From: Victivallis vadensis
GTDB lineage: Bacteria; Verrucomicrobiota; Lentisphaeria; Victivallales; Victivallaceae
Length of the DNA: 38,984 bases
NCBI RefSeq assembly: GCF_003096415.1
Contig: NZ_QEKH01000039.1
Location: 1 to 38,984 of the forward strand
Reading direction: 5' to 3'
Shown here: positions 1,177-18,546 of the stretch, piece by piece
How positions within the stretch are numbered: the first letter of the stretch is position 1
How the letters are laid out: each line of letters begins with the position of its first letter
The notes under the pieces: generated by a model
The model's input: only the letters and a program-made list of their open reading frames with translations
Database searches by the model: none
Told to the model about the DNA's origin: nothing
Program-made: the position numbers and the translations under genes

Positions 1177-2358
1177 TCATACGAAATGGATGCGGACCTC
1201 TTTCATATACCGGTCGCTCAGCACGGCGCCGAGGCGTTTTATGATGTTGCGTCGCAGTTCGAGGTCGACCGGCAGGTTCGGGTCCTGATGGGCTTCGTTG
1301 ATCCGTGTCCCGACCAGGAATTCGATGATGTCGTTGCGGCGCATCAGCTCCACCAGCCGACCGGCGGGGTCGAGCTTGCTGAACTCATTGTTTTCCAGAT
1401 AGCGGGCGGCGCGGGTCAGGGTGAAGATGCCTTCAGTGACCAGATCGGCGCCGGGCATACGGGAAAGCGGGGGCAGGTCGCCGCTGACGGTGTCGAGGTC
1501 GATGGTCAGCGGCCGGCCGAGTTCGCGGGAGATGATTTCGGCGGAGGTGCCGCCGGAGATCACCTTCGTCCCCTCGAACTCGCGGAAGGTGCGGGCGCAT
1601 TCCGCATCGCGGGCCTGATCGAACGGCGGACCGGTGAACAGCAGCATCCGGCGCGGTTTGCGGAAGTAAAGGCAGGCGCAGGAGATATCGTCGGCGGGAC
1701 GCTGGCCGGGCTCGTGGGCGACGGCTTCGCGCAGGATGCGTTCGGAAAGTTCCTGTGCGCAGATATCCGGCTGGGCCGCCACCTGCTCCGCCGCATATTC
1801 TTCGACGCCGGAGCCGCGCCAGCCGAGCGGAAAACGCGGCGTGCCGAGCCCGGCCTGCGTAACCCCGTCGGAAAAGAAGAGAACCCGGTCTTCCGCCTGG
1901 GCCTGAAAGGTATAGGCGGTCATGGCGCGTTCGCGGTATTTGGGCGAGGAAAACTCCCGCCCTTCGACCGGAAACGGCCTGCCGTGCCGCAGCAGCAGGA
2001 ATTCCGGATTCCCCATCTCCACAATGCGGGTCACGCCGCCGAGGCGGGTGTCGACGATGGTGAAGGTCGCGTAGCTGATCTGCCGTACCTGACAGACCGG
2101 CAGCGCATCCATGATGATTTCGGCGGAGTGGACGATCTCGCGGTCCTCCGCGCTGAACCGCAGCGCCATCGTGGTGGTCATCAAAGCGAGGATGTTCGCC
2201 TTTACTCCATGTCCCAGTCCGTCCGCCAGCACCGCCAGCAGCCGTTCTTCGGCCGGAATCCGCTTGAAGGCGACCGCATCCCCGCAGGCTTTTTCCTGAA
2301 AGTGGCAGCACTGGCTGAAGCCGGTGTCGATGAAGAGGTTGCCGGTGGTCAGATTCAT
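1177..2358 (-). CDS. SpoIIE-family PP2C-type serine/threonine phosphatase
   Basis: This 393-residue soluble protein has PP2C/SpoIIE phosphatase features: ADGLGHGVKA around residues 45-54 carries the first metal-binding Asp-Gly, FFSDGVTQAG is the mid-domain Asp-Gly motif, and PADDISC holds the late Asp pair. The family removes phosphate from Ser/Thr of regulatory proteins such as anti-anti-sigma factors. The last third (after CLYF) is an extra region of unknown role. It is the last gene of the rex operon and its start overlaps the hydrogenase stop by 4 bases, so the two are probably translationally coupled. With a PAS-containing hydrogenase upstream, the simplest reading is an output module whose activity depends on the hydrogenase sensor. 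No antagonist or kinase partner is encoded nearby, so the target is unknown. Confidence 0.85.
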   Translation of the reverse strand: MNLTTGNLFIDTGFSQCCHFQEKACGDAVAFKRIPAEERLLAVLADGLGHGVKANILALMTTTMALRFSAEDREIVHSAEIIMDALPVCQVRQISYATFTIVDTRLGGVTRIVEMGNPEFLLLRHGRPFPVEGREFSSPKYRERAMTAYTFQAQAEDRVLFFSDGVTQAGLGTPRFPLGWRGSGVEEYAAEQVAAQPDICAQELSERILREAVAHEPGQRPADDISCACLYFRKPRRMLLFTGPPFDQARDAECARTFREFEGTKVISGGTSAEIISRELGRPLTIDLDTVSGDLPPLSRMPGADLVTEGIFTLTRAARYLENNEFSKLDPAGRLVELMRRNDIIEFLVGTRINEAHQDPNLPVDLELRRNIIKRLGAVLSDRYMKEVRIHFV

Positions 2359-4103
2359 AACGGCTGTTCCTCCGGCGGCGGTTCGGGCGGGATCAGGGTT
2401 TCATCGGCGTAGTCGTCGGCGATGGAACGGAGCAGGAGCTCGGTATCGGCCATCTGTTCGCCGAGGCGGCAGGCGATCTCCTGCACGGTGGCGAGGTTGC
2501 GGTCGATCACTTCCCGGGCGCGCGCGGCGATCTGTTCGCGGCGCAGTTCGGTGCTGGTCACGTCGAACATCACCGCGCCGATCACCTCGCCCGGCTCGAT
2601 GTTGAAAATGTTCACGTTGAAGAGCCGCTTGCCGCACTTCAGCGAATCGCGGCGCACATCGCGGCCGCTCTGCAGAGAGGATTCAAAGAGCGCGTAAAAA
2701 GGGACGATCCGGCTCAGGTCGGCTCCTGCCAGCCCCGGGCAGGCGTCGAAGGCTTCGACCGTATCCGCACCGAACAGCTCGGCGAAATTGCGGTTGCATT
2801 CGATGATCTGGAGCTTTTTGTCGGCGATCACCACGCCGGAGGAGATGCTGCGCAGCAGCGCATTCGCCTTTTTCTGCGCCTGTTTTTTCAGGTAGGAAAC
2901 GCACATTGACGGCTCGGCGTGGCCGGAGAGCAGCGCCTGCGCGAAGTTGCGGCAGGTATCGTAGCCGCAGCCGTCGCAGTTGAGTTCGTCTTCGGGACAG
3001 GTCTTGCCGATGCTCCGCAACGCGGCGACGATATCGTTTCCCGCCGGAACCGGGGCGGCGACCGCGTCGCCGGGAAATTTCGCATGGATGCTGCCGGAGG
3101 TGCTGCGTTCGCGGGGACGGTCGGGCCACCGGGTGTGGCGCAGCACCCGCAGCCGTTCGAGCAGGCCGGGGGAGTCATGTTCGGCGCAGGGGCCGTGCAC
3201 ACAGCCGCCGGGACAGGCGAGCATTTCGACGAAAACCGCCTCTCCTTCCGGCATCCCTTCGAGGCCGCCGAGCGCCAGTTTCAGGTTGTCCAGCCCGGTC
3301 AGCGTCGCGTAGTGGACTTCGGAACCGGCGGTTTGGAACCGGATGGTGTCGTTCATGCCGCCTTCGACCGGATACTGCGCCCCCTCCTCGGCTGCTTCGG
3401 GCACGAATCCGTCGGCGGGATCGGCGGCCAGCCGTTCGGGATCGATCGAAGCCTCGCGGAACATCTGGCGCAGTTCGGGGTAGGTGACCGCGAGATTGAG
3501 CAGCTCCGGATTGCGGTCCGCCTCATTCTTCTTGCCGATGCAGGGGCCGATGAAAACCACCCGGATCCCGTCCCCGTACCGGTCGCGCAGCATCCGGGCG
3601 TGCGCCATCAGCGGCGAGCCGACCGGTGTGATGCAGCCGGCGAGATGGGGCAGGTATTTGCGCACGAAATCCACCGCGGTCGGGCAGGCCGACGAGAGCA
3701 GCAGCCCGGCGGAGCCGCCATCCAGCTCTTTGGCGACCTGCGCCGAAACCAGTTGCGCGCCGAGCGCGGTTTCACTGACTCCGGCGAAGCCGAGCTGCTT
3801 CAGCGCCCGGATCAACTGGCCGGAGGCCACGTTCTTGAATTCGCTGACCCACGACGGCGCCAGCGAGGCGTAAACGGGAGCCGGTTCGGAGAGCAGCAGC
3901 CGCAGCCGTCCGGTGCCGTTGCGCACCTGCTTGGCCTTGACCGGGCAGACTTCGACGCATTTGCCGCAGGCGACGCAAAGCTCCGGAATCACGGCGGCGT
4001 GGCCGTCGCGGACCCGGATCGCCTTGACCGGACAGTGGCGGACGCATTTGTAACAATCCTGGCATTCGGCTTCGATGGTATAAACCGGATAGGCGTGGGT
4101 CAT
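2355..4103 (-). CDS. hydS: sensory-type [FeFe]-hydrogenase with PAS domain (HydS-like)
   Basis: 582 residues. Two ferredoxin [4Fe-4S] motifs lie at the N-terminus (Cys14/17/20/24 and Cys43/46/49/53). The H-cluster domain follows, with its three ligand motifs: SSACPT (Cys140), GPCIGKK (Cys188) and ACPGGC (Cys297, Cys301). A further Fe-S motif (Cys369, 376, 379, 384, possibly 401) precedes a PAS domain at about 413-525. All H-cluster cysteines are kept, but the proton-relay Cys beside Cys140 is Ala and the Met of the catalytic MPC motif is Gly. As I recall, these same substitutions mark group C sensory hydrogenases such as Thermotoga HydS. A role in sensing H2 or redox state is therefore more likely than bulk H2 turnover. 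It sits between a 2Fe-2S protein gene (3-base gap) and the phosphatase gene (4-base overlap). Hydrogenase maturases are not in the window. Confidence 0.88.
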   Translation of the reverse strand: MTHAYPVYTIEAECQDCYKCVRHCPVKAIRVRDGHAAVIPELCVACGKCVEVCPVKAKQVRNGTGRLRLLLSEPAPVYASLAPSWVSEFKNVASGQLIRALKQLGFAGVSETALGAQLVSAQVAKELDGGSAGLLLSSACPTAVDFVRKYLPHLAGCITPVGSPLMAHARMLRDRYGDGIRVVFIGPCIGKKNEADRNPELLNLAVTYPELRQMFREASIDPERLAADPADGFVPEAAEEGAQYPVEGGMNDTIRFQTAGSEVHYATLTGLDNLKLALGGLEGMPEGEAVFVEMLACPGGCVHGPCAEHDSPGLLERLRVLRHTRWPDRPRERSTSGSIHAKFPGDAVAAPVPAGNDIVAALRSIGKTCPEDELNCDGCGYDTCRNFAQALLSGHAEPSMCVSYLKKQAQKKANALLRSISSGVVIADKKLQIIECNRNFAELFGADTVEAFDACPGLAGADLSRIVPFYALFESSLQSGRDVRRDSLKCGKRLFNVNIFNIEPGEVIGAVMFDVTSTELRREQIAARAREVIDRNLATVQEIACRLGEQMADTELLLRSIADDYADETLIPPEPPPEEQPL

Positions 4104-5155: not shown

Positions 5156-5196
5156 TATCCATGTGCTACAACGATGAAGCAGAATTGGAATCAAGA

Positions 5197-6201
5197 ATGG
5201 TCAGGAAGAATTCAACGGTAACTCTGAAGGATATCGCGCAGGAGCTGGGGCTGTCGGTCAAAGCGGTTTCGACCGGGCTGAACGGCACCGGGCGGCTGTC
5301 GCCCGAAACCCGCAAGAAGATTCAGGAGGCCGCCCGCAGGATGGGGTACACGCCGAATGTCGCGGCCCGGTCGCTGGTCACCCACCGCAGCAGCTTTATC
5401 GGAGTGCTGGTGCCGTACCTGAACAGCAGTTTTTTCGGCAACATCATCGCCGGTATCGAGGAAGTGGCGGGAGAACACGATTTCACGTTGTTGCTCGATT
5501 CGCTGGATTGCGATGAAAACCGGCAGCGGCGGGTGCTGTCGCGGCTGATGCAGCGCAATGTGGACGGCATCATCCTGTATCCGCAGCGCCACCAGCTCGG
5601 ACTGGCGGAGAGCCTGAAAGCGATCGGCGTGCCGGTGATTCAGGTGATGAACCATTTCGCCGAATTCGGCGAATACGCGGTCATGGTGGACAACCTGACC
5701 GGCGGGCGCGAAGCCACCGAGCACCTGATCGGGCTCGGCCACCGGAAAATCGGTTTTATCGGCCATGACGACGAGTCGCCCGAACTGGTCGCGCGCCATC
5801 GCGGCTTCGATGCGGCGATGCGGGCGCATCGGCTCGGAACGGAGTGCTGCTGCAAGTGTTTCATGTCGATCGAGTCCGGGCGGGAGGCGGCGCTGGAACT
5901 GCTGACGGCGCATCCCGAAGTGACCGCGCTTTTCGCCGCGTCGGATGTGGCGGCGCTGGGGGCGATCCGGGCGGCGCTGGAATTGGGGCGCAGGATTCCG
6001 GAGGAGCTGGCGATCATCGGCTTTGACGATCTGGAGATCGCGGCCAGGCAGATGGTCTATCCGTTGAGCACGATGGCGCAGCCCAAGGAGCGGATCGGGC
6101 AGTTGGCGGCCCGGATGATGCTGGACCTTTTCGCCGGGAAAACGGTGGAATCCCAGTTGCTGAACGCACCGTTGGTGGTCAGAAAGACGACAAGGAGTTA
6201 A
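5197..6201 (+). CDS. LacI-family transcriptional regulator (locus 1)
   Basis: 334 residues with the standard LacI layout: an N-terminal helix-turn-helix (VTLKDIAQELGLSVKAVS), a hinge (NVAARSL) and a periplasmic-binding-protein-like effector domain with the usual late signature IIGFDDLE. These proteins bind a sugar or its phosphate and leave their operators. The start at 5197 places the helix-turn-helix at the usual distance from the N-terminus and lies about 35 bases from the predicted transcription start. The next gene begins 4 bases after its stop, and that gene's AAGGAG site is inside the end of lacI. The regulator is thus part of the cluster it probably controls (to 15616). The effector is unknown. 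Confidence 0.88.
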   Translation: MVRKNSTVTLKDIAQELGLSVKAVSTGLNGTGRLSPETRKKIQEAARRMGYTPNVAARSLVTHRSSFIGVLVPYLNSSFFGNIIAGIEEVAGEHDFTLLLDSLDCDENRQRRVLSRLMQRNVDGIILYPQRHQLGLAESLKAIGVPVIQVMNHFAEFGEYAVMVDNLTGGREATEHLIGLGHRKIGFIGHDDESPELVARHRGFDAAMRAHRLGTECCCKCFMSIESGREAALELLTAHPEVTALFAASDVAALGAIRAALELGRRIPEELAIIGFDDLEIAARQMVYPLSTMAQPKERIGQLAARMMLDLFAGKTVESQLLNAPLVVRKTTRS

Positions 6202-7246: not shown

Positions 7247-7975
7247 ATGAAACGACATTTTACCTTAATTGAGCTGCTCGTAGTGATAGCGATCATCGCC
7301 ATTCTAGCGGGAATGCTGCTACCTGCGCTGAACCGGGCGCGGGAGAGCGCGCACGCTTCGAGCTGCCTGAGCAACCTGAAACAACTGGGCTCGGGGATGA
7401 TGCTTTATGTGGATGCGAATGACGGGATGCTGCCGCCGATGAAGCGGATTGTGGATGGAAACGCCGCCTGGTGGACCGAGTATCTGATCGGAAATAAAAT
7501 GATTACGGGCGGGGTGATGGGCTGTCCCTCCGTGAAGTCCGAAACGATCAATTGGAAAAACGTTTCGGAGGCTGACGCCTTTACCGGCAATGTGAATTTC
7601 GAGTGGCCGCATTATGCGTTGAATGAATCCTGCGCTCCTTATATGAACGATAACTTCGTGTCGCGGAAGCTGAGCCGGGCGAAGTCGCCGTCGATGACCC
7701 TGAGCAATGCGGATACGGCCAGCGGCAACAGCAGCGGCGGGGTGCGGATGTTCACTCCGAACCTGATCCAGCAGTACAACACGACCGGCAGTTTTTCGAT
7801 CATCGACCTGCGGCACGGACAGGGAGCGAATGCGCTGTTTCTGGATGGTCACGCCGCTTCTCGGAAATCTTCGACGAAGTTGCCGATCAACTATTCGTCG
7901 GATGACAACCCCTACAAAAATGCGTTTGAAGGCGACACCCAGTCGCCGGAGCCGGGAACGCTGTGGGGTTTCTGA
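7247..7975 (+). CDS. type IV pseudopilin-like protein with H-X9-DG motif (locus 1)
   Basis: 242 residues. The prepilin leader is very short (MKRH) and runs straight into [18 protein letters not shown], the hydrophobic N-terminal helix of type II secretion/type IV pilins, then the [12 protein letters not shown] continuation. The residue before Phe is His, not the usual Gly. Near the C-terminus is [12 protein letters not shown], the H-X9-DG signature seen in the expanded pseudopilin families of Planctomycetota and Lentisphaerota. An AAAGG site lies 9 bases before 7247; ATGs at 7220 and 7238 are in frame but less well placed. The stop overlaps the next gene's start by one base. It would be inserted in the inner membrane and processed by a prepilin peptidase; its job inside a sugar locus is unproven. 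Confidence 0.88.
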
Positions 7976-8922
7976 TGAAGTTCGGTATGGTGCCGCAGGC
8001 GCTCCCGGGGAGTGACCGGGGGGAGAAGGCGGCGGTATTCAACCATAAGGATATTCGTCCGGCACTGCCGGAACCCGAAGAGTTCAACGAATTCTGGCGC
8101 AGCGGGTTGGCGGAGGTTGCGGCAGTGCCGGCGGATGTTCGCCGGAAGCGGATCGAAGCGTTGTGCGACGGTCGGCGCGAGGTGTGCCGGATCAGCTTCG
8201 CGACGGTCGGCGGCGGGCGGATCTACGGCTTCCTGACGCGTCCGGCCGGGGCGGGGCCGTTTCCGGCGCTGGTGTCGGTGCCGGGGGCGGGGCCGGGAAC
8301 CGGGCCGGATGCGGAATCGGCAAACGAGGGCTTCGCGGTGTTGTACTGCAATGTGTTCCCGTATGAGACGACCGAGGATTGTGCGGAAAATGAACGGCGT
8401 TACGAGGCGTTCAACCGGGAAGGGCTGTATATTTACCGGGGCGCGGAGTCGCCGGAACGCTGCCTGATGCGTTCCGCGCTGCTCGGAATCGGGCGGGCGG
8501 TGGAGTGGTTCGCGGCCCAGCCGTTCGTGGATGCGGACCGGATCGGCGTTTTCGGTTCGAGCCAGGGCGGCGGTTTTGCGCTGATGCTGGCCGGGCTGGT
8601 GCCGCATTTCCGGGCGGCTGCGGCGAATGTGCCCGCCTTCTGCGACTTCGGCGGCGAAAAGAGCGGCTGGCCGCAGTTCCGGCGACACGGCTTCGACCGG
8701 ATGCAGCTTTTCGACGCCGCGTATTTCGCGGCCCGGATTCAGTGTCCGGTGAAGATGATCGCCGGATGGCGCGACGAGGTGTGTCCGCCCGAATCGGTCT
8801 ACGCCGCTTACAACTGCATCAATGCGCCGAAGGAGATCATCGACGAACCGTCGATGGCGCACGAGATATGGCCGAGCTACGGCCGTTTGCAGCAGTGGCT
8901 GAGAGAGGAATTGAAAGGATAG
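7975..8922 (+). CDS. CE7-type acetyl xylan esterase (AXE1 family)
   Basis: 315 residues, alpha/beta hydrolase of the acetyl xylan esterase/cephalosporin-C deacetylase family, which removes acetyl groups from xylo-oligosaccharides and similar substrates. The nucleophile elbow is GSSQG with Ser196, and the family-typical residues Asp267 (GWRDEVCPP) and His296 (AHEIW) complete a full triad. No signal peptide is seen, so the enzyme probably acts on imported oligosaccharides in the cytoplasm. The ATG at 7975 shares one base with the pseudopilin stop, indicating translational coupling; an earlier in-frame ATG at 7963 lies inside the pseudopilin. The natural substrate is not fixed by sequence. Confidence 0.85.
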   Translation: MKFGMVPQALPGSDRGEKAAVFNHKDIRPALPEPEEFNEFWRSGLAEVAAVPADVRRKRIEALCDGRREVCRISFATVGGGRIYGFLTRPAGAGPFPALVSVPGAGPGTGPDAESANEGFAVLYCNVFPYETTEDCAENERRYEAFNREGLYIYRGAESPERCLMRSALLGIGRAVEWFAAQPFVDADRIGVFGSSQGGGFALMLAGLVPHFRAAAANVPAFCDFGGEKSGWPQFRRHGFDRMQLFDAAYFAARIQCPVKMIAGWRDEVCPPESVYAAYNCINAPKEIIDEPSMAHEIWPSYGRLQQWLREELKG

Positions 8923-8925
8923 GCA

Positions 8926-10191
8926 ATGGAAATTTCATTGAAACTGCTGCCGGTTTCGCCGGTCAGTTGCCGGGCGCCGGTGGATGCGCGCTATGCGTTT
9001 CGCGGCGCGGCTCCGGCGGAACTTCGCCTGACGCTGGCCGGGCGCGAGGTGATGCGGCGGAAGCCCGGCGAACCGAATGCGGCGGGGTGGTATTCCGGCG
9101 TGCGGAAGCTCGACCTGACCGGGATGGCCGGCGGGGTGGAACTGAAGTTCGAACTGCTGGATGAAGCCGGGAACACGATCGCCGCCGCCGTCCGGCCGCT
9201 TGAAGTCGTGGATTCCGAAACCCGTTCCACCGGGCGGATCGACGGCGCGTGGTGCGGGCTGTACCACTGGAGCGAGGAGGAGGGGCGGCTCTGGAACCGG
9301 GAGCTGCGGAAGTTCACCGCCGCCGACTGGCGGGAGCTGATCCGGTCGATGCACCGGATCGGGATGGATGTGGTGATCCTGCAGGAGCTGTTCCGCAATC
9401 AGGAGTATTACGGCAGGCACCGGATGCCGGAAACGGGATACCGGGGGCGGGCGTTCTATCCGTCGGAGCTGTTTCCGGGGCGGATGGAGATCGGCTGCCC
9501 CGATCCGGTCGAAGCGATCCTCTCCGCCGCCGACGAGCTGGAAATGGCGGTGCTGCCGGGGATCGGGATGTACGCATGGTTCGACTTCACGCCGGAGTCG
9601 CTCGACTGGCACTGCCGGGTGGCGCGCGAGGTGTGGAAACGCTACGGGCATCACCGTTCCTTCTACGGCTGGTATATCTCCGAGGAGGTGTTCGGCGACC
9701 TGAACCGGGGGACGAAGACGCCGGAGGAGATCGTCGCCTTTTTCCGCGGATTCGGCAAACTGCGCGACGAACTCGACCCGACGCTGCCGGTGATGCTGGC
9801 GCCGAACTGTTTCGGGGTACCCTCCGCGCTCGACAGCTGGAAGCTGCTGGCGCGCGAGCTGGATATCCTGTGCCCGTTCGGCTTCAACCGGATGCCGGAG
9901 GGGGACCTCGCGCCGGAGCAGGCGATCGCGCTGATGCAGTCGATCGCCGACGAAAACGGCGCGCATCTGTGGCTGGATATGGAAATCTTTCTCTTCAAGG
10001 AGGATATGGCCCTCTATCCGCGCCCGGTCGACGAAATCTTTTACGAGCTGGAGAACTACCGGAGCTTTGAAAAGGTGCTCTGCTACCAGTTCCCTGGCCT
10101 GTTGAACGCCCCCGGCTCCCGGCTGACTCCCGGCGGGCCGGACACCGTGAAGCTCTATTGCGACTACCGGAGGAGAATCCATGCTGACTGA
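8926..10191 (+). CDS. DUF4434-like TIM-barrel protein with N-terminal beta domain
   Basis: 421 residues without a signal peptide. The first 95 residues look like a small beta-sandwich. From GAWCGLYHWSEEEG onward the protein resembles DUF4434 barrels: a W..LI..M..IGMDVVILQE strand-helix, a central SFYGWYISEEV strand whose glutamates are good catalytic candidates, and a late LWLDMEIF strand. The family is thought to hold glycosidase-like proteins, but no reaction is established as far as I know. An AAAGGA site precedes the ATG, and the gap from the esterase stop is 3 bases. Its last 11 bases overlap the symporter start. A second, shorter DUF4434-like gene lies just after the symporter. Confidence 0.75.
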   Translation: MEISLKLLPVSPVSCRAPVDARYAFRGAAPAELRLTLAGREVMRRKPGEPNAAGWYSGVRKLDLTGMAGGVELKFELLDEAGNTIAAAVRPLEVVDSETRSTGRIDGAWCGLYHWSEEEGRLWNRELRKFTAADWRELIRSMHRIGMDVVILQELFRNQEYYGRHRMPETGYRGRAFYPSELFPGRMEIGCPDPVEAILSAADELEMAVLPGIGMYAWFDFTPESLDWHCRVAREVWKRYGHHRSFYGWYISEEVFGDLNRGTKTPEEIVAFFRGFGKLRDELDPTLPVMLAPNCFGVPSALDSWKLLARELDILCPFGFNRMPEGDLAPEQAIALMQSIADENGAHLWLDMEIFLFKEDMALYPRPVDEIFYELENYRSFEKVLCYQFPGLLNAPGSRLTPGGPDTVKLYCDYRRRIHAD

Positions 10192-12007
10192 GAAACTTCT
10201 GGCGATCGACCCCGTGATCATCGCCGTCTATCTGGTCGTTTCGCTGCTGCTCGGCATTTTCGGCAGCAGGCTTCTGGGGATGAACAACTCCAAAGAGGAC
10301 GACTACTATCTGGCCGGGCGCAAGATGCCCGGCTGGCTGAACGGCATGAGCGTGGCGGCGACCGCGTTGAACAGCGATGTCGCGCCGCTTTACTGCGGCA
10401 TCGCGGTGGTGACCGGGCTTTCCGGCTGCTGGTTCTTTCTCTCCCGCTTCGGGATGGCGCTGCTGCTGGCGGCGATCCTGTTCGCGGTGCGCTGGCGGCA
10501 GATGGGAATCAGGACCGGCCCGGAATTTTTTCATCTCCGGTTCGGTGCGGGCAACAAATTCGCGCGGGTCTATTCGTCGCTGACCTCGGTGCTGATCGGC
10601 ATGGTGCCGTGGATCGGCGCGGGACTGATCGGCATCCATCTGGTCGCCGCCCCGATCTTCGGGATCGACAGCAAGGCGGTCACGCTGCTGATCGTGCTGC
10701 CGCTGCTGACCGTCTACGTGTGGACCAGCGGCCTCGCGGGCGTGCTGCTGACCGACGCGCTGCAGGGCTTCGTGATCCTCGCGGCCAATCTGGTGATGGT
10801 CGGCGCGGTGCTGTGGGCGTTCGGCGGCCCCTCCGGGCTGGCGGAGGCGGTGATGAGTGCGGCCGGGCCCGAAACCGGCGGCGCGATCCTGTCGATCCTG
10901 CCGCAGGCGGGCAATCCGGTATTAAGTCCGCTGAGCATTTTCGCATGGATGCTGATCGTGTCGGTCGGCGCGGGCAGCGCGGTCGGCGCGGACGGCCAGC
11001 GGCTCTTCTCCTGCCGCAGCAACCGCGAGGCGGCGAAGGTCGGCATCTGGGGCGAAGTGATCCTGTTCGCGATGCTGCTGATGCTGATGCTGCCCGCGAT
11101 GGGGCTGCTGGCGCGCCACCCCGAGTTTTACACGGCCTCGCCTTCGGAGCGGGAGTTCGCCTACGGAAAGATGCTCTCGGAATTTCTGCCCAGAGGCGGC
11201 GTCGGCCTGACGGTCGCGGCGCTGCTGGCGGCGGTGATGAGCACGATTTCAACCCATCTCAACTACGGTTCCCAGACCTTGCTGAACGATGTGTGGCGGC
11301 CGCTGGTCGGCGAACCGAAGCCGGGCCGCGAGGTCTGGATCGGGCGGCTGCTGATGCTCGGCATCGCGGTGCTGTCGGTCGGGGTGGTGTTCGCCGCCGA
11401 TTCGCTGCTCGGCATCGCGGTGGTGGTGCTCGGAGTTTTCGGCACTTCGGCGGCGTTCGGCTGGGCGCAGTGGTGGTACTGGCGGATCAATTTCAAGGGG
11501 TGGTGCGCGTCGGTGGTCGCCGGGCCGGTGGTCTACCTGATCTGCGGGCGGCTGCTGCCGCTGATCCCGTGGTGGGCCGCCGAAATCGCCAGAGGCCCCG
11601 CCGAGGCGCAGAATATGCAGCTGCTGCAGGCGGTGGTCGCGCTGGCGGTCAACACCGGCATCTGGCTCGCGGTCACCGTGCTGACCAGACCGGAGGATAT
11701 GGAGGTGCTCAAGGAGTTCTATCTGCGCGCCCGTCCGATGGGATGCTGGGGGCCGGTGCGCCGCGCGCTGATCGCCGAGGGGCGGCTGCCGGAAGAACCC
11801 GCGCCGTCGCTGATCCTGCCGGGCGTCGGCGTGGCGGCGGTCGGCTTCGCGATGATCGCCGCCGGAGTATTGACCGCTTCGACGCTCTACGTCGGCAAGT
11901 ACCTGGAGGCCGCATTGTGCGGCGCCGCCTGTCTGGTTGCCGGAGTGATTTTCAAAATGATTTTCAACCGTTACATTTCACGCCTGACCGTAAGTCGGGA
12001 ATCATAG
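10181..12007 (+). CDS. sodium:solute symporter (SSS family)
   Basis: 608 residues with about 13 or more hydrophobic helices starting at IIAVYLVVSLLLGIF. The LAGRKMPGWLNGMSVAATAL stretch is the typical first-loop signature of SSS transporters, which couple Na+ entry to uptake of sugars and related solutes. A strong GGAGGAGA site precedes the ATG at 10181, which lies inside the end of the preceding gene. It is placed between two DUF4434-like genes and followed by a secreted glycosidase-like gene, so its substrate is probably the mono- or disaccharide released by this locus. The C-terminal region after the core helices includes an extra soluble segment and two final helices. Confidence 0.9.
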   Translation: MLTEKLLAIDPVIIAVYLVVSLLLGIFGSRLLGMNNSKEDDYYLAGRKMPGWLNGMSVAATALNSDVAPLYCGIAVVTGLSGCWFFLSRFGMALLLAAILFAVRWRQMGIRTGPEFFHLRFGAGNKFARVYSSLTSVLIGMVPWIGAGLIGIHLVAAPIFGIDSKAVTLLIVLPLLTVYVWTSGLAGVLLTDALQGFVILAANLVMVGAVLWAFGGPSGLAEAVMSAAGPETGGAILSILPQAGNPVLSPLSIFAWMLIVSVGAGSAVGADGQRLFSCRSNREAAKVGIWGEVILFAMLLMLMLPAMGLLARHPEFYTASPSEREFAYGKMLSEFLPRGGVGLTVAALLAAVMSTISTHLNYGSQTLLNDVWRPLVGEPKPGREVWIGRLLMLGIAVLSVGVVFAADSLLGIAVVVLGVFGTSAAFGWAQWWYWRINFKGWCASVVAGPVVYLICGRLLPLIPWWAAEIARGPAEAQNMQLLQAVVALAVNTGIWLAVTVLTRPEDMEVLKEFYLRARPMGCWGPVRRALIAEGRLPEEPAPSLILPGVGVAAVGFAMIAAGVLTASTLYVGKYLEAALCGAACLVAGVIFKMIFNRYISRLTVSRES

Positions 12008-12022
12008 AAAGGATTTATTGCC

Positions 12023-12958
12023 ATGCAGATAACCGGAACTTTCCTCGATGAGATCAGCCACGACATCCCGCACCAGAACTGGGGGCGGGCCGAGTGGGAC
12101 CGCGACTTCGCGTCGATGAAGTCGATCGGCATCGACACCGTGATCCTGATCCGCTGCGGCCACCGCCGGTTCATCACCTATCCGTCCGGATACCTGATGG
12201 AGCGCGAGGGGTGTTACAGGCCGTCGACGGACCTGGTGGACCTGTTCCTCGATCTCGCCGAAAAGTATGGCATGAAGTTCTATTTCGGGCTGTACGACTC
12301 CGGCAAATACTGGCACAACCACGAGTGCGAACGCGAGATGGAGATCAGCCGCGCGGTCGCCGACGAGGTGTGGAGCCGCTACGGGGAGCGCAAGGCTTTC
12401 GGCGGTTGGTATCTGAATTTTGAAGTCAGCCGCGCCTTCGCAGGGATCACCGAGCTGTATGCCGGGATGGGGCAGTATGTGAAGCAGCTCTCCGGCAACC
12501 TGCCGACGATGATTTCGCCGTACATCGACGGCATCAAGCTCGCGGTGCCGGGCGAGGAGCTGTATAAGGAGGATTCCATCGGCATCGCCCAGCACGAGAA
12601 GGAGTGGAACGAAATCCTCAAGGGGATTCAGGGCGCGGTCGACATCGTCGCGTTTCAGGACGGCCATTGCGACTATCACGAGCTGGCCGACTACCTGCGG
12701 GTCAACAAAAAACTGACCGATCGTTATGGGATGACCAGCTGGACCAACTGCGAGAGCTTCGACCGCGATATGCCGATCCACTTCCTGCCGATCAAGTGGG
12801 ACAAGATGCTGATGAAGCTGGAAGCGGCAAAGGCCGCCGGAATCGAAAAGGCGATCACCTTTGAGTTTTCACACTTCATGAGCCCGAACTCCTGCTACCG
12901 GGCCGCCGGCCATCTTTTCGACCGCTACTGCGAACACTTCAACCTGGCCGGGAGGTGA
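12023..12958 (+). CDS. DUF4434-like TIM-barrel protein
   Basis: 311 residues, no signal peptide. It begins directly with the barrel (MQITGTFLDEISHDIP), has the DUF4434-type W..DF..MKSIGIDTVILIR opening and an AFGGWYLNFEVS strand matching the SFYGWYISEEV strand of the gene at 8926, with a Glu kept. It ends with an AITFEFSHFMSPNS strand carrying another acidic residue. Hence it is a paralogous, minimal version of the upstream protein. An AAAGGA site precedes the start. A GGAGG site for the next gene lies in its last codons. Likely a cytoplasmic glycosidase-like enzyme; substrate unknown. Confidence 0.75.
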   Translation: MQITGTFLDEISHDIPHQNWGRAEWDRDFASMKSIGIDTVILIRCGHRRFITYPSGYLMEREGCYRPSTDLVDLFLDLAEKYGMKFYFGLYDSGKYWHNHECEREMEISRAVADEVWSRYGERKAFGGWYLNFEVSRAFAGITELYAGMGQYVKQLSGNLPTMISPYIDGIKLAVPGEELYKEDSIGIAQHEKEWNEILKGIQGAVDIVAFQDGHCDYHELADYLRVNKKLTDRYGMTSWTNCESFDRDMPIHFLPIKWDKMLMKLEAAKAAGIEKAITFEFSHFMSPNSCYRAAGHLFDRYCEHFNLAGR

Positions 12959-12960
12959 CG

Positions 12961-14904
12961 GTGAGAAAACTTCTGTACATCACTCTGTTGAGCACGGTTC
13001 TGCCGCTGGCGCTGCCGGCGGCGGTCGAGGATTTCAAAAGCTACTCCGACACGGAGGCGCTCAGGAAGAACTGGACCGGCTTCGGCGGCGGAAACCCGGC
13101 TCCCGCAGTGGTGCTTTCCACGCTGGACGGCGTTCCGGCGATGGAGCTGACAACTGCGGGAGGCCCCGGCGACAAGGTGATCGTGCGCGAACTGGCGGTA
13201 CGGCCGGGCGAACGGCTGGCCTTTACGATGCACTCCGACGCGAAGAATGCGCCGGGAGCCTACGCGTATGTCGCGCTGCGTTCCGACCGCAACGCCGGGA
13301 ATCTGGTGCTGCACGATTTCAAACTCGTGCCGGGACAACCGGTCAAGGTGGAGATTCCGAACGAGGGGCGCTTCAACTGGCAGGACCATCTCGCGCTGCT
13401 GATCTGCCTGCACGACGCGGGCGCGCCGATGCGGGTCACGGTCGGCGCGATCGACCTGCCGGGAGCGGCGGCGGTACGTGAATTCCACGATACGCCGGAG
13501 GCGCGCAAGGCGCGGCGGGAAAAACTGCTGTACGGCCGCACCACTCAGATCGACACTGCGTTTCCGTACTATCACAACCGCTCCAATGAAAGCATCGCCT
13601 CGGAGCTGCGGGTCAACGGTTTTGACGGCGTCTGGTACTACACCGGCATGGATACCGGGCTGCGTTCCGGGCTGGTCGGCGAGATGCAGCGCCAGAAGCT
13701 CGGCGTCGGGCTGATGACGCTGCCGAGTCTGGTCTACTGGAGCGAGGCGCAACTGGCCGAACGGCTGCCCGCCGGCTGGCGCGACTGGCTGATCGAATTC
13801 ACCGGCAGGGAGATGGACATCTACCGCTTCATCGGTTTCGTGTACCCGGAGTACAACCGGTGGTACAAAAACTACCTGAACGGCATGTTGGCCGGGCACG
13901 GCTTCGACGCATTCACTTTCGCCGAAATCATGTACCCGATCTACGACGGCCCGGAGAGGAACCCGCCGTTCTACGGCGACGTCAGCCCCGGTTTTCAGGC
14001 GGCGTTCAAGGCGGCGACCGGCAACGCGAAGTTCCCGAACTTCACCGATCCCGCCGACCCGGACTATTTCAAAACCAATACCGGACTCTACCGGCAGCTG
14101 GTCGAATACCGGGTCAAAACCATCGACGACTTCTACGACGACATCATCAACGGTCCCGGCGGGGCGCGCGAAACGGCGCCGGGGATTCTTTTCGCGACCT
14201 GGACGCTCGGCATCAACATCCCGGACGGCGTGGCGAAGCTGCGCGAATGGGAAGGCAACGATATCGTCGCGATGATCCGGCGCGTGAAGCCCGATCTGCA
14301 CTTCATCCAGACCCACGCGCCCGACTGGGCGAATCCGGCGCTGCCGGGGGATTATCCGCTGGCTTACAAGCCCTTTTTCGACGCGGTGCGCACGGCGAAT
14401 CCCGACGTGAAAATCGGAATGCAGGCGGACCTCGGTTCGCTCGGCCCCTCCCGCCGCGACCCGGCATGGCAGAAGCTGTTCTACGACGCATGCCGGGAGG
14501 CGGGAGTGGACACCACCACCTATTATGAATTCGGCCTGCGCTGGGAGATCTATTCGCTGCCGCCGCGCCTGTGCGAAATCCGCCGCGACGGCGACACGCT
14601 CTCGCTGGTGTTCGACCAGCGGCTCGGCGCGGAATCCGCAAAGCTGATGAAAGGGCGCGAGCTGAAGGGAAAGGAGCGTTCCTGCCGGATCGCGGAGTGC
14701 CGCTGGGACGGCAACCTGCTGCGGCTGAAGCTCGATACGCTCCCGGCAGTCGGCGAGGTGCTGACCGTGCCGGTCGGCGGTGTGGCGGACGATCCTGCGG
14801 TGCGTTTCCCCGCCTCCAACGTGGAGCCGATGCCGCGCGGCCCGGTCAACACGATCCCCGCCGGGACGGAAGTGACGCTGCCGGTGCTCGACGGCTCTTT
14901 TTGA
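12961..14904 (+). CDS. secreted glycosidase-like protein with N-terminal W-F-GNP domain
   Basis: 647 residues starting at a GTG that lies 5 bases after a GGAGG site; an alternative GTG at 12955 overlaps that site and is less likely. A signal peptide (MRKLLYITLLSTVLPLALPA) is followed by one copy (about 22-170) of the module that is doubled in the 6206 protein: VEDFKSYSDTEALRKNW then GFGGGNPAP. Residues about 195-540 form a TIM-barrel-like region with acidic strand ends (FTFAEIMYPIYDG, GMQADLG, YYEFGLRWE). The last 100 residues are beta-rich. I cannot assign a glycoside hydrolase family. It is probably the extracytoplasmic degrading enzyme of locus 1. Confidence 0.7.
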   Translation: MRKLLYITLLSTVLPLALPAAVEDFKSYSDTEALRKNWTGFGGGNPAPAVVLSTLDGVPAMELTTAGGPGDKVIVRELAVRPGERLAFTMHSDAKNAPGAYAYVALRSDRNAGNLVLHDFKLVPGQPVKVEIPNEGRFNWQDHLALLICLHDAGAPMRVTVGAIDLPGAAAVREFHDTPEARKARREKLLYGRTTQIDTAFPYYHNRSNESIASELRVNGFDGVWYYTGMDTGLRSGLVGEMQRQKLGVGLMTLPSLVYWSEAQLAERLPAGWRDWLIEFTGREMDIYRFIGFVYPEYNRWYKNYLNGMLAGHGFDAFTFAEIMYPIYDGPERNPPFYGDVSPGFQAAFKAATGNAKFPNFTDPADPDYFKTNTGLYRQLVEYRVKTIDDFYDDIINGPGGARETAPGILFATWTLGINIPDGVAKLREWEGNDIVAMIRRVKPDLHFIQTHAPDWANPALPGDYPLAYKPFFDAVRTANPDVKIGMQADLGSLGPSRRDPAWQKLFYDACREAGVDTTTYYEFGLRWEIYSLPPRLCEIRRDGDTLSLVFDQRLGAESAKLMKGRELKGKERSCRIAECRWDGNLLRLKLDTLPAVGEVLTVPVGGVADDPAVRFPASNVEPMPRGPVNTIPAGTEVTLPVLDGSF

Positions 14905-14977
14905 GGTTGAAAAACGGCGTCGCCGCTTGCGATTGTACTGTTGCTCTCCTATATTACAGCAAAAACAAGGAGGAAAA

Positions 14978-15616
14978 ATGGCAACCGTATACAATCTTGG
15001 AATCAGCGGCGCGACCTCGGCGCAGGTATTGCGCGACGAACTGCCGCAGGCATTGGAACTCAAGCCGGAGTGGGCGGTCGTGATGGCCGGCACCAACGAC
15101 CGGATCAACTCTTACGCTCTGGTCCCGGCCTCGGAATACGAGGCGAACCTGCGCCGGATCGCGGAGCAGCTCGCCTCCGCCGGAATCCGCGTGATGCTGA
15201 TGACACCGCCCCCGTGCATCGAGGAGTATTTGTACACCCGCCACCCGAAAGCGGCCTACGGCGGACACACTCCCGCCGACCGGCTGCTGGAGGCGGGAGC
15301 GATCGTGAAAAAGCTGGCGTCGGAGTTCAACGCCCCCTGCGTCGACGTTCATGCGGTGATCGGAACCGACCCCGCCAATCTGATCCGCACCGTCGCGAAT
15401 TGCGGCCAGCCGGACGGAGTGCATCTGCTGCCGGCGGGCTATCGTGCGATCGCCGAAGCCGTCTTCGCGAAATTCCGGGAACTCGGAATCCGCCCCGCCT
15501 CCGTGGCCTGTCTCGGCGACAGCCTTACCTTCGGCCATCCGCGTGTCGAAGGCGGCACGCCGGAGAACGGGACCTATCCGGCTGTGTTGTCCGCAAAACT
15601 CACGCTCCTTTCATAG
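14978..15616 (+). CDS. SGNH hydrolase with circularly permuted block order
   Basis: 212 residues; a strong AGGAGG site fixes the ATG at 14978. It belongs to the SGNH/GDSL esterase fold, but the motif order is rotated. It opens at block II (YNLGISGATS), then block III (MAGTNDR, Asn40), then block V (PDGVHL, Asp146 and His149), and only near the C-terminus has block I with the nucleophile (CLGDSLTFG, Ser182), followed by one helix (TYPAVLSAKL). In ordinary members block I is near the N-terminus. The breakpoint falls between helix 1 and strand 2, so a complete catalytic set is kept. Likely a carbohydrate or acyl esterase working with the CE7 enzyme. No signal peptide. A tandem duplication with a truncated second copy is the main alternative. 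Confidence 0.75.
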   Translation: MATVYNLGISGATSAQVLRDELPQALELKPEWAVVMAGTNDRINSYALVPASEYEANLRRIAEQLASAGIRVMLMTPPPCIEEYLYTRHPKAAYGGHTPADRLLEAGAIVKKLASEFNAPCVDVHAVIGTDPANLIRTVANCGQPDGVHLLPAGYRAIAEAVFAKFRELGIRPASVACLGDSLTFGHPRVEGGTPENGTYPAVLSAKLTLLS

Positions 15617-15986: not shown

Positions 15987-17867
15987 ATGATGAAACTCTC
16001 TCGTGAAACATGGATTCTGCTTCTGACCGGTGCGGCGGCCGCTGCCGCGCTGGCGCTGGGCGTCGCCGCATTCCGGCTGGCCCGGCACGAGGAGGAGTTC
16101 CGCAAGGAAGAGCTGCGCTCGCTGCTGAAAAGCGAGTGCCGGTTGTTCGCGGGCCGCTGCCGTCAGGCGCTCGACGCCGAGCGACGGGAATTGGCGGAGT
16201 TGGCCGCCGGCGCTGTGCCGTCGGTGGCGGGAATCCGGGAAGCTGTCGGGAGAGAACCGCTGTTTACCGCCGGATTTCTGGCCCGGCGGGACGGCACGCT
16301 GCTGTATCCGGAGCCGGGAAGCGGTTGGGCGAGGCGGTACGGGGAGCTGTTTGCCGGGCTGGTCAGTGCGCGCGACGCGGAGAGCACACAGTTTTCCAAC
16401 GTGGTGATGCCGTCCGATTCGGCACTGCTCTACCAGACGCGGACCGCGCCGAAACGGAACGACCTGCGCCGGATCGAGCCGATGGCGGGGACCCTCGGCA
16501 GTTCCCGGATGGAAAACCGCACCGATGTGCTCCGGGAAGCGGAGGCGGTCCCGGTTCCGGAGGCTGCCGCTCCCGTATCGAAGCTCAAGAGTAAAGAGCG
16601 TTCCGTCAGGCCGGCGGCTCCGGCCAAAGCTGCTCCGGCAATGGAAATGGCGGCGGACGCCGCTTCCCCGGCATCGGCGGATTCGCCGCGGATGATCACC
16701 CGCTTCGCCGCGCTGACCCGGAAACGGCGGGACGGCTTCATCCCGTGGTTCACCGACAACCGGTTTGCGCCGCTGATCTGGGCGCAGAGCCGGAACGCGC
16801 CTGACCTGATCGCCGGTTTTGAATTGGAGGACACGGTGCTGCTGTCGCGGCTGATTCCGCTGTTCCCGGAGGAGCTGCCCGGTTACTTCCGGCTCGAACT
16901 GGCGGATGCCGCCGACCGGGTGGTTTACGCTACCGGCGGCGCTTTCGCCGCCAATGAGGAAAAACGGCCGGAGCCGGTACTGGTGATGCCGTTTTCGGAA
17001 CTGCTGCTGCCGAATATGCAGCTGCGGGCCTTCCTGCTGCCGGAGCTGTTGCCGACGAACTCCTTCCGGTTCGGGATGGGGCTGGCGCTGGCGGCGCTCT
17101 GTCTGATCATATTCGCCGCCGGCGGAGTCGCGTTCTATCTGACGCGGCGGGAGCTGGCGCTGGCGGGGCAGAAGAGCGGCTTTGTGTCGCAGGTGTCGCA
17201 CGAGCTCAAGACGCCGCTGACCAGCATCCGCATGTACTCCGAACTGCTGCGCGATCACCTGGCGCGGCTGCCGCAGGAGAAGCGGGAGCGGTATTTGAAA
17301 GTGATCGCCGACGAGAGCGAGCGGCTGACCCGGCTGGTCGGCAATGTGCTGGATTTCGGGCGGCTCGACGAGGGGCGCAAACGCTATCATCCCGCGCCGG
17401 TCGACCTTTGCGAGCTGGCCGGAGCCACCGGGGCGCTGTGGAAGGAGCTGGCCGCCGCCGAGAATATGACCGTGGAAGTCCGGCTGCCGGAAACCGCGGC
17501 GGAGTGCGTGGTCGACCGGGATTCGCTGATGCAGGTGTTGTACAACCTTTTTTCCAACGCGCTGAAATATGCCGGGGAAGGCGGAAAGCTCGATCTGACG
17601 CTCGCAGCCCGGGCGGATGGACGCTGGACCATCGCGGTGCGGGACTACGGCCCCGGGATTCCGGCGGCGGCCGCCGAGAAGATTTTCCGGAAATTCTACC
17701 GGGTTGACAGCAGCCTGACCGCCGAAGTCTCCGGCTTCGGGCTCGGACTGGCGATCGCGCGGCAGCTGATGCGCGACCAGGGAGGCGACCTGCAGCTCGT
17801 CCGGAAATCGCCCGGCGCCGAATTTCTGATCGTTCTGCCGAAAGGAAATGCAAATGGAACCGTTTAA
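15987..17867 (+). CDS. membrane sensor histidine kinase
   Basis: 626 residues. Helix 1 is at about 10-30 and helix 2 at about 362-386, enclosing a large extracytoplasmic region of about 330 residues. The catalytic part has an H box (SQVSHELKTP, His405), N box (NLFSNALKY, Asn524), G1 (DYGPGIP), F box (FRKFYR) and G2 (GFGLGLAIA), so it is a complete kinase. The periplasmic region contains an Ala/Pro/Lys-rich low-complexity stretch at about 185-235. There is no HAMP domain between helix 2 and the H box. The response regulator start overlaps its end by 14 bases. The signal is unknown. A GGAG site lies about 12 bases before the ATG. Confidence 0.92.
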   Translation: MMKLSRETWILLLTGAAAAAALALGVAAFRLARHEEEFRKEELRSLLKSECRLFAGRCRQALDAERRELAELAAGAVPSVAGIREAVGREPLFTAGFLARRDGTLLYPEPGSGWARRYGELFAGLVSARDAESTQFSNVVMPSDSALLYQTRTAPKRNDLRRIEPMAGTLGSSRMENRTDVLREAEAVPVPEAAAPVSKLKSKERSVRPAAPAKAAPAMEMAADAASPASADSPRMITRFAALTRKRRDGFIPWFTDNRFAPLIWAQSRNAPDLIAGFELEDTVLLSRLIPLFPEELPGYFRLELADAADRVVYATGGAFAANEEKRPEPVLVMPFSELLLPNMQLRAFLLPELLPTNSFRFGMGLALAALCLIIFAAGGVAFYLTRRELALAGQKSGFVSQVSHELKTPLTSIRMYSELLRDHLARLPQEKRERYLKVIADESERLTRLVGNVLDFGRLDEGRKRYHPAPVDLCELAGATGALWKELAAAENMTVEVRLPETAAECVVDRDSLMQVLYNLFSNALKYAGEGGKLDLTLAARADGRWTIAVRDYGPGIPAAAAEKIFRKFYRVDSSLTAEVSGFGLGLAIARQLMRDQGGDLQLVRKSPGAEFLIVLPKGNANGTV

Positions 17868-18546
17868 AATTCTGGTCGCTGAAGACGACCGCAATATCCG
17901 CTCCGGCCTGGTCGACGCGCTGGAGCTGGAGGGGTATGTGATGGAGGAAGCTGCCGCCGGCGCCGGCGCGCTGCGCAAATTCACCGCGTTCCGGCCCGAT
18001 CTGGTGTTGCTCGATGTGATGATGCCGAACCTGAACGGTTACGAAGTGTGCCGCCGGATCCGCCGGAGCGATGTTGCGACTCCGATTATCATGCTGACCG
18101 CCAAGGGCGAGGAGATCGACAAGGTGCTCGGGCTGGAACTCGGAGCCGACGATTACGTGACGAAGCCCTTCGGGCTGCGCGAGCTTTCCGCCCGCATCGC
18201 GGCACAATTGCGTCGTCGCCGGGTCGAAACCGCCGCCCCGCCTCCTTCCGGCGAATTCGCCTTCGGTCCGTGGCGGGTGGATGTGAAAAAGCTCTCCGCT
18301 GAAACCGCCGGAGCCGCCGTCGAACTGACCATGCGCGAAATTGAACTGCTGCGTCTCTTTGCCGCCCATCCCGGCGAGGTGCTCGACCGGAGCTTCATCA
18401 TGCGCGAAATCTGGGGCAATGCCCTGACCTCCTCGCGCACGCTCGATCAGCATCTGGTCGCATTGCGGCGTAAAATCGAACCGGAGCACCTGCCGCGCCT
18501 GATCGAAACGGTCTACGGCGTCGGTTACCGGTTCCGCCCGGAATAA
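17854..18546 (+). CDS. OmpR/PhoB-family response regulator
   Basis: 230 residues. The receiver domain (1-120) has Asp11/Asp12, phosphoacceptor Asp54 (LLDVMMP), Thr82 and Lys104 (TKPFG). A winged-helix DNA-binding domain (about 132-230) ends in the usual VYGVGYRF. The ATG at 17854 is preferred because AAAGGA lies 7 bases upstream; the ATG at 17848 is too close to it. It is cotranscribed with the kinase gene and is the obvious candidate to bind the 11-bp repeats at 15633-15671, making the system autoregulatory. It is convergent with the pirin gene, 18 bases away. Confidence 0.93.
   Translation: MEPFKILVAEDDRNIRSGLVDALELEGYVMEEAAAGAGALRKFTAFRPDLVLLDVMMPNLNGYEVCRRIRRSDVATPIIMLTAKGEEIDKVLGLELGADDYVTKPFGLRELSARIAAQLRRRRVETAAPPPSGEFAFGPWRVDVKKLSAETAGAAVELTMREIELLRLFAAHPGEVLDRSFIMREIWGNALTSSRTLDQHLVALRRKIEPEHLPRLIETVYGVGYRFRPE

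Follow-up and report, generated by a model that had tools for sequence, protein, structure and literature searches.

A circularly permuted SGNH/GDSL hydrolase domain, order II-III-V-I, in Victivallis vadensis

The 38,984-nucleotide stretch of Victivallis vadensis DNA analyzed here (the window) contains a gene for a genuine SGNH/GDSL hydrolase domain whose catalytic blocks run in the order II-III-V-I. This is neither the canonical order I-II-III-V nor the order V-I-II-III of the AlgX, AlgJ and DHHW proteins. The gene likely belongs to a family of permuted SGNH serine esterases, and its product probably O-deacetylates imported oligosaccharides. Because dozens of relatives, and two phages, keep both the rearrangement and the catalytic residues, we consider this a real enzyme family and not a broken gene. 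The order II-III-V-I thus characterizes a sizeable family, and is not a single oddity.

Results

Translation of the window reproduces the reading frame, coordinates, 212-residue length and motif positions of the initial annotation (Table 1), which had described a protein that begins at block II behind a ribosome binding site. Translation and alignment likewise agree with its order of II, III, V, I, in which the serine block follows the Asp-His block. The annotation had also placed the break between helix 1 and strand 2, and there the alignment, the predicted structural elements and the junction in a canonical relative described below all concur. The GDSL motif occupies residues 180-183. The SGNH residue set (S182, G11, N40, D146 and H149) is present in full and, together with G38, D41, G180 and D181, is invariant in 29 aligned members. 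No second SGNH domain was found elsewhere in the window.

Table 1. Coordinates of the permuted esterase gene, its motifs and its upstream neighbors in the window.
Feature	Position	Strand	Details and basis
Circularly permuted SGNH/GDSL hydrolase	14978..15616	+	212 aa, order II-III-V-I; translation, Pfam native and rotated, 29-member alignment, AlphaFold2 model
Block II NLGISG, residues 6-11, N-terminal, strand beta2, oxyanion Gly11	14993..15010	+	Gly11 invariant, n=29
Block III GTND, residues 38-41, oxyanion Asn40	15089..15100	+	G38, N40, D41 invariant, n=29
Block V DGVH, residues 146-149, catalytic Asp146 and His149	15413..15424	+	Both invariant, n=29
Linker, residues 166-174, join of former C- and N-termini, last helix to strand beta1	15473..15499	+	AlphaFold2 helix 152-168 followed by strand 175-179
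Strand beta1 and block I (VACLGDSL), catalytic Ser182, C-terminal	15500..15526	+	G180, D181, S182 invariant; C-terminal profile matches
Helix alpha1 (TYPAVL...), final element; cut point alpha1/beta2	15575..15610	+	AlphaFold2 helix 200-211; P201, L204 invariant
Ribosome binding site AAGGAGG, 4 nt 5' of ATG	14967..14973	+	Sequence
Promoter-like TTGCGA-17-TATATT, putative	14927..14955	+	Consensus scan, 1 found vs 0.2 expected
LacI-type regulator of upstream carbohydrate cluster	5161..6201	+	Pfam
AXE1-family acetyl xylan esterase	7963..8922	+	Pfam, 2e-40
DUF4434 protein	8926..10191	+	Pfam, 7.1e-38
Sodium:solute symporter	10181..12007	+	Pfam SSF, 6.8e-35
DUF4434 protein, second copy	12023..12958	+	Pfam, 4.9e-80
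649-aa protein, signal-peptide-like start, without Pfam match, between DUF4434 gene and esterase	12955..14904	+	

Rotating the protein in silico, by moving its C-terminal 48 residues to the front, completes its match to the superfamily. The native protein scores 79 bits against Pfam Lipase_GDSL_2 (PF13472; cut-off 32.9) and covers only profile positions 34-178, while the rotated protein scores 90.4 bits over positions 1-178 and matches Lipase_GDSL (PF00657) from 1 to 208 of 208. In canonical SGNHs from the same phylum, a profile of the family's C-terminal 48 residues matches N-terminally to the II-V region, with best E-values of 2e-4 to 6e-3 calculated for 10,000 sequences, and the II-V profile matches the remainder of these proteins with E-values down to 1e-36. 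The extension of the Pfam match on rotation and the homology of both halves point to permutation, and not to chance. In the solved esterase 4tx1, residues 9-52 align to positions 174-216 of the family profile, its C-terminal part, and among the 60 listed of 78 matched PDB sequences none is colinear with profile positions 2-216. The cut site itself can be read from near canonical relatives, where alpha1 runs directly into beta2, as in YPKILGERLG-VTVLNAG of L072.

Block I is single and confident in all 52 permuted ORFs examined, and always lies C-terminal to blocks II-V. A few of these ORFs have extra weak block I matches, at E-values of 0.1 or worse. Tandem two-domain homologues, which the initial annotation had named as one finding that would overturn its reading, were looked for among the same 52 ORFs, and neither tandem genes nor other tandem intermediates were found.

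The window protein is confidently predicted to adopt an alpha/beta/alpha SGNH-like fold with a central parallel sheet. AlphaFold2 (ten sequences, drawn from the window and its related loci) gave a model with pLDDT 87.8 and pTM 0.87, in which a confident strand at residues 175-179 lies just before Ser182 (block mean pLDDT 94) and the helix at 200-211 corresponds to the returning alpha1; the loop at 187-193, after Ser182, is poorly predicted (pLDDT < 50). The model of a phage member, L090, has the same order of elements (pTM 0.83). Comparison with canonical SGNH structures, as the initial annotation had proposed, returned high similarity: the best Foldseek match is 3p94, with a TM of 0.64-0.68, and VIA-align Z scores are 17.6 to 3mil and 16.2 to 3p94. 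Among the top structural matches are isoamyl acetate esterase, TesA, sialate O-acetylesterase and the acetyl xylan esterase Axe2.

The nearest homologue, L035, is 77% identical and comes from another Victivallis MAG; it has the same start, and its end is three residues shorter. The window gene is under purifying selection, with a dN/dS against L035 of 0.145 overall and 0.10 across residues 165-212. Single-protein searches found same-order homologues in 19/61 genomes (the window's own and relatives); on genome contigs such a search returned one relative, the 77% identical homologue, and on viral contigs none. The search for homologues of the same order that had been suggested at the outset was also run with a profile built from the 29 aligned members. 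Across 388 genomes of the phylum, it gave 55 same-order matches in 38 genomes from 9 families, some of them of other classes. These matches score 160-288 bits, extend as far as the C-terminal block I and, with one exception, are nearly full-length, while canonical SGNHs score at most about 122 bits against the same profile and cover only about positions 3-175. In a tree built from blocks II-V, which both groups share, the permuted or canonical label needs 2 changes, against 17.5 when labels are shuffled, and a single origin of the permutation is therefore possible.

One match, at 1501-2067 of L081 (G226:C27:3270-3836), is a permuted SGNH domain located towards the N-terminus of a large protein. 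Having lost the catalytic Ser and Asp (GGEEVHG, SKRH), this relative is degenerate and may be a binding domain; catalytic loss therefore does occur in the family.

Several lines of context connect the permuted family to glycans. Among fused members, L116 is joined to NPCBM and GH36, L112 and L114 to DUF6259 with or without CBM_4_9, and L061 to CBM_4_9. A GH43 gene follows L035, in another setting. GH130 genes lie near 7/19 sampled homologue loci against 0.27 expected, though these loci were hand-picked and the expectation ignores the clustering of glycan genes; all seven GH130-adjacent homologues are fused forms, none stand-alone like the window protein, and no GH130 was found in the window's own cluster. 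A conserved operon around the window gene was considered and rejected, because L035 has different neighbors. The esterase gene is closely followed by an overlapping pair, a histidine kinase gene and a response regulator gene (15987-18546, + strand), of which the latter starts inside the former.

Discussion

The arrangement of the window protein is best explained by a joining of the canonical N- and C-termini, last helix to strand beta1, and an opening of new termini where helix alpha1 meets strand beta2, which gives a chain that reads II-III-V-I. The permuted chain is predicted to fold into the usual alpha/beta/alpha sheet, in which Ser182 would serve as nucleophile and His149 and Asp146 as charge relay, while the oxyanion hole would be formed by Gly11, Asn40 and the backbone of Ser182. 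Canonical PF13472 SGNHs such as 3p94 (BDI_0976) and Axe2 (3w7v) share this predicted fold, the four blocks, the Ser-His-Asp triad and the Gly/Asn oxyanion residues, and differ from the window family in their order of I-II-III-V and in the position of the termini.

Such an enzyme would most likely O-deacylate oligosaccharides that the cell has imported, the groups removed probably being acetyl. The window copy has no signal peptide, and the protein is therefore probably cytoplasmic. Our best guess, a cytoplasmic oligosaccharide O-(acetyl)esterase, draws on the carbohydrate cluster, the GH43 gene beside L035, the fusions to glycan domains, the GH130 neighbors and a precedent in Roseburia intestinalis, whose beta-mannan loci encode intracellular SGNH acetylesterases together with GH130, GH36 and a LacI regulator (PMC6385246). 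There RiCE2 and RiCEX, both of SGNH type, act on internalized acetylated oligosaccharides; they are not described as permuted (PMC6385246), and the window's cluster differs from the Roseburia loci in having no GH130. With a promoter-like site of its own, the window gene may or may not be co-expressed with the LacI cluster.

The substrate is where we hold the greatest reservation. SGNH enzymes act on lipids and thioesters too, and the fold alone therefore does not prove substrate class. SGNH folds are promiscuous, and the best structural matches range from isoamyl acetate esterase and TesA to sialate O-acetylesterase and Axe2, so an active permuted esterase directed at something other than carbohydrate O-acetyl groups, be it a lipid, a thioester, sialic acid or another ester, deserves consideration. 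We nevertheless judge this unlikely, given the carbohydrate context in the window and the fusion of relatives to glycan-active domains.

That the protein is permuted and folded yet has given up catalysis to serve as a binding domain is improbable. L081, without its triad Ser and Asp, shows the kind of loss this would entail, but the window protein's catalytic and oxyanion residues are all intact, and are the ones held invariant across the 29 aligned members.

Permuted SGNH-like domains have been described before, in AlgX, AlgJ, PatB1 (DHHW) and WssI, and these are O-acetyltransferases with the order V-I-II-III (H-S-G-N), cut between blocks III and V (PMC4148444, PMC9487903, PMC10302187). This precedent would favor reading the window protein as an O-acetyltransferase like AlgX or PatB1 and not as a hydrolase, which we find quite improbable. 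The cut point is different, and the window family has a G-N-H-S order with canonical motifs: GDSL, DxxH and the block III Asn stand where AlgX and AlgJ have GTSYS, DxH and Tyr. The described group as a whole combines such altered motifs (GTSYS, DxH, Tyr or Asp for Asn) with a periplasmic or membrane-anchored transferase role. Furthermore, no membrane-bound O-acyltransferase was found among the Pfam-scanned surrounding genes, and the companion genes are degradative. By its sequence, the window protein is best placed as an SGNH superfamily member with a new permutation, outside the AlgX/DHHW group.

Last, superfamily members as a rule keep the canonical order, and circular permutations usually arise via tandem duplication, but it is hardly credible that the gene is what remains of a canonical SGNH gene, or of a two-domain tandem one, after truncation, rearrangement or misassembly. 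Independent homologues that are full-length and share its ends refute this, among them the 77% identical gene of another MAG, with its shared start and nearly shared end; the order common to 55 matches, the dN/dS of 0.145 and the lack of any ORF with a second confident block I speak against it as well.

With an esterase of the permuted SGNH family as the preferred reading, its novelty can be stated more precisely. The initial annotation knew of no characterized family with this order in such clusters, and in the literature searched we likewise found neither a description nor a solved structure of II-III-V-I; permuted SGNHs as such are known, with the other cut, V-I-II-III. It is uncommon for a widely used enzyme fold to occur as a natural circular permutant, and the examples for SGNH in the literature searched are transferases with that other cut. 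The family described here offers many natural permutants with catalytic residues kept, beside canonical relatives in the same genomes, which makes it possible to test directly how well permutation is tolerated, how it arose and how it affects domain fusion. A C-terminal signature, DGVH...CxGDSxTxG...TYPxxL, marks permuted esterases in which profile searches currently recognize no more than a partial SGNH domain; several of these esterases sit inside large uncharacterized proteins fused to glycan-active domains. More broadly, we lean towards the view that II-III-V-I, with its alpha1/beta2 cut, represents an undescribed SGNH class with full catalysis and one or very few origins, which may have spread among Verrucomicrobiota-type glycan degraders and phage tail regions and acquired GH and CBM fusions at either end.

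A permuted copy is found on two phage contigs. On L090 it occupies 2950-3645, flanked by a large tail-like protein on one side and an endolysin-type amidase on the other, and on L091 it lies at 2329-3627, upstream of a tape-measure protein and fused behind another domain. These phage esterases are possibly host-surface deacetylases, a putative role. In plasmid and phage collections, all matches to five queries stop short of the C-terminal block I; they end by residue 197 and, judged by this extent, look canonical. The C-terminal block I falls within residues 16-218 of the L090 protein (2950-3642), the stretch matched by phrog_13362, a PHROG of unknown function, and other phages may therefore carry the order II-III-V-I.
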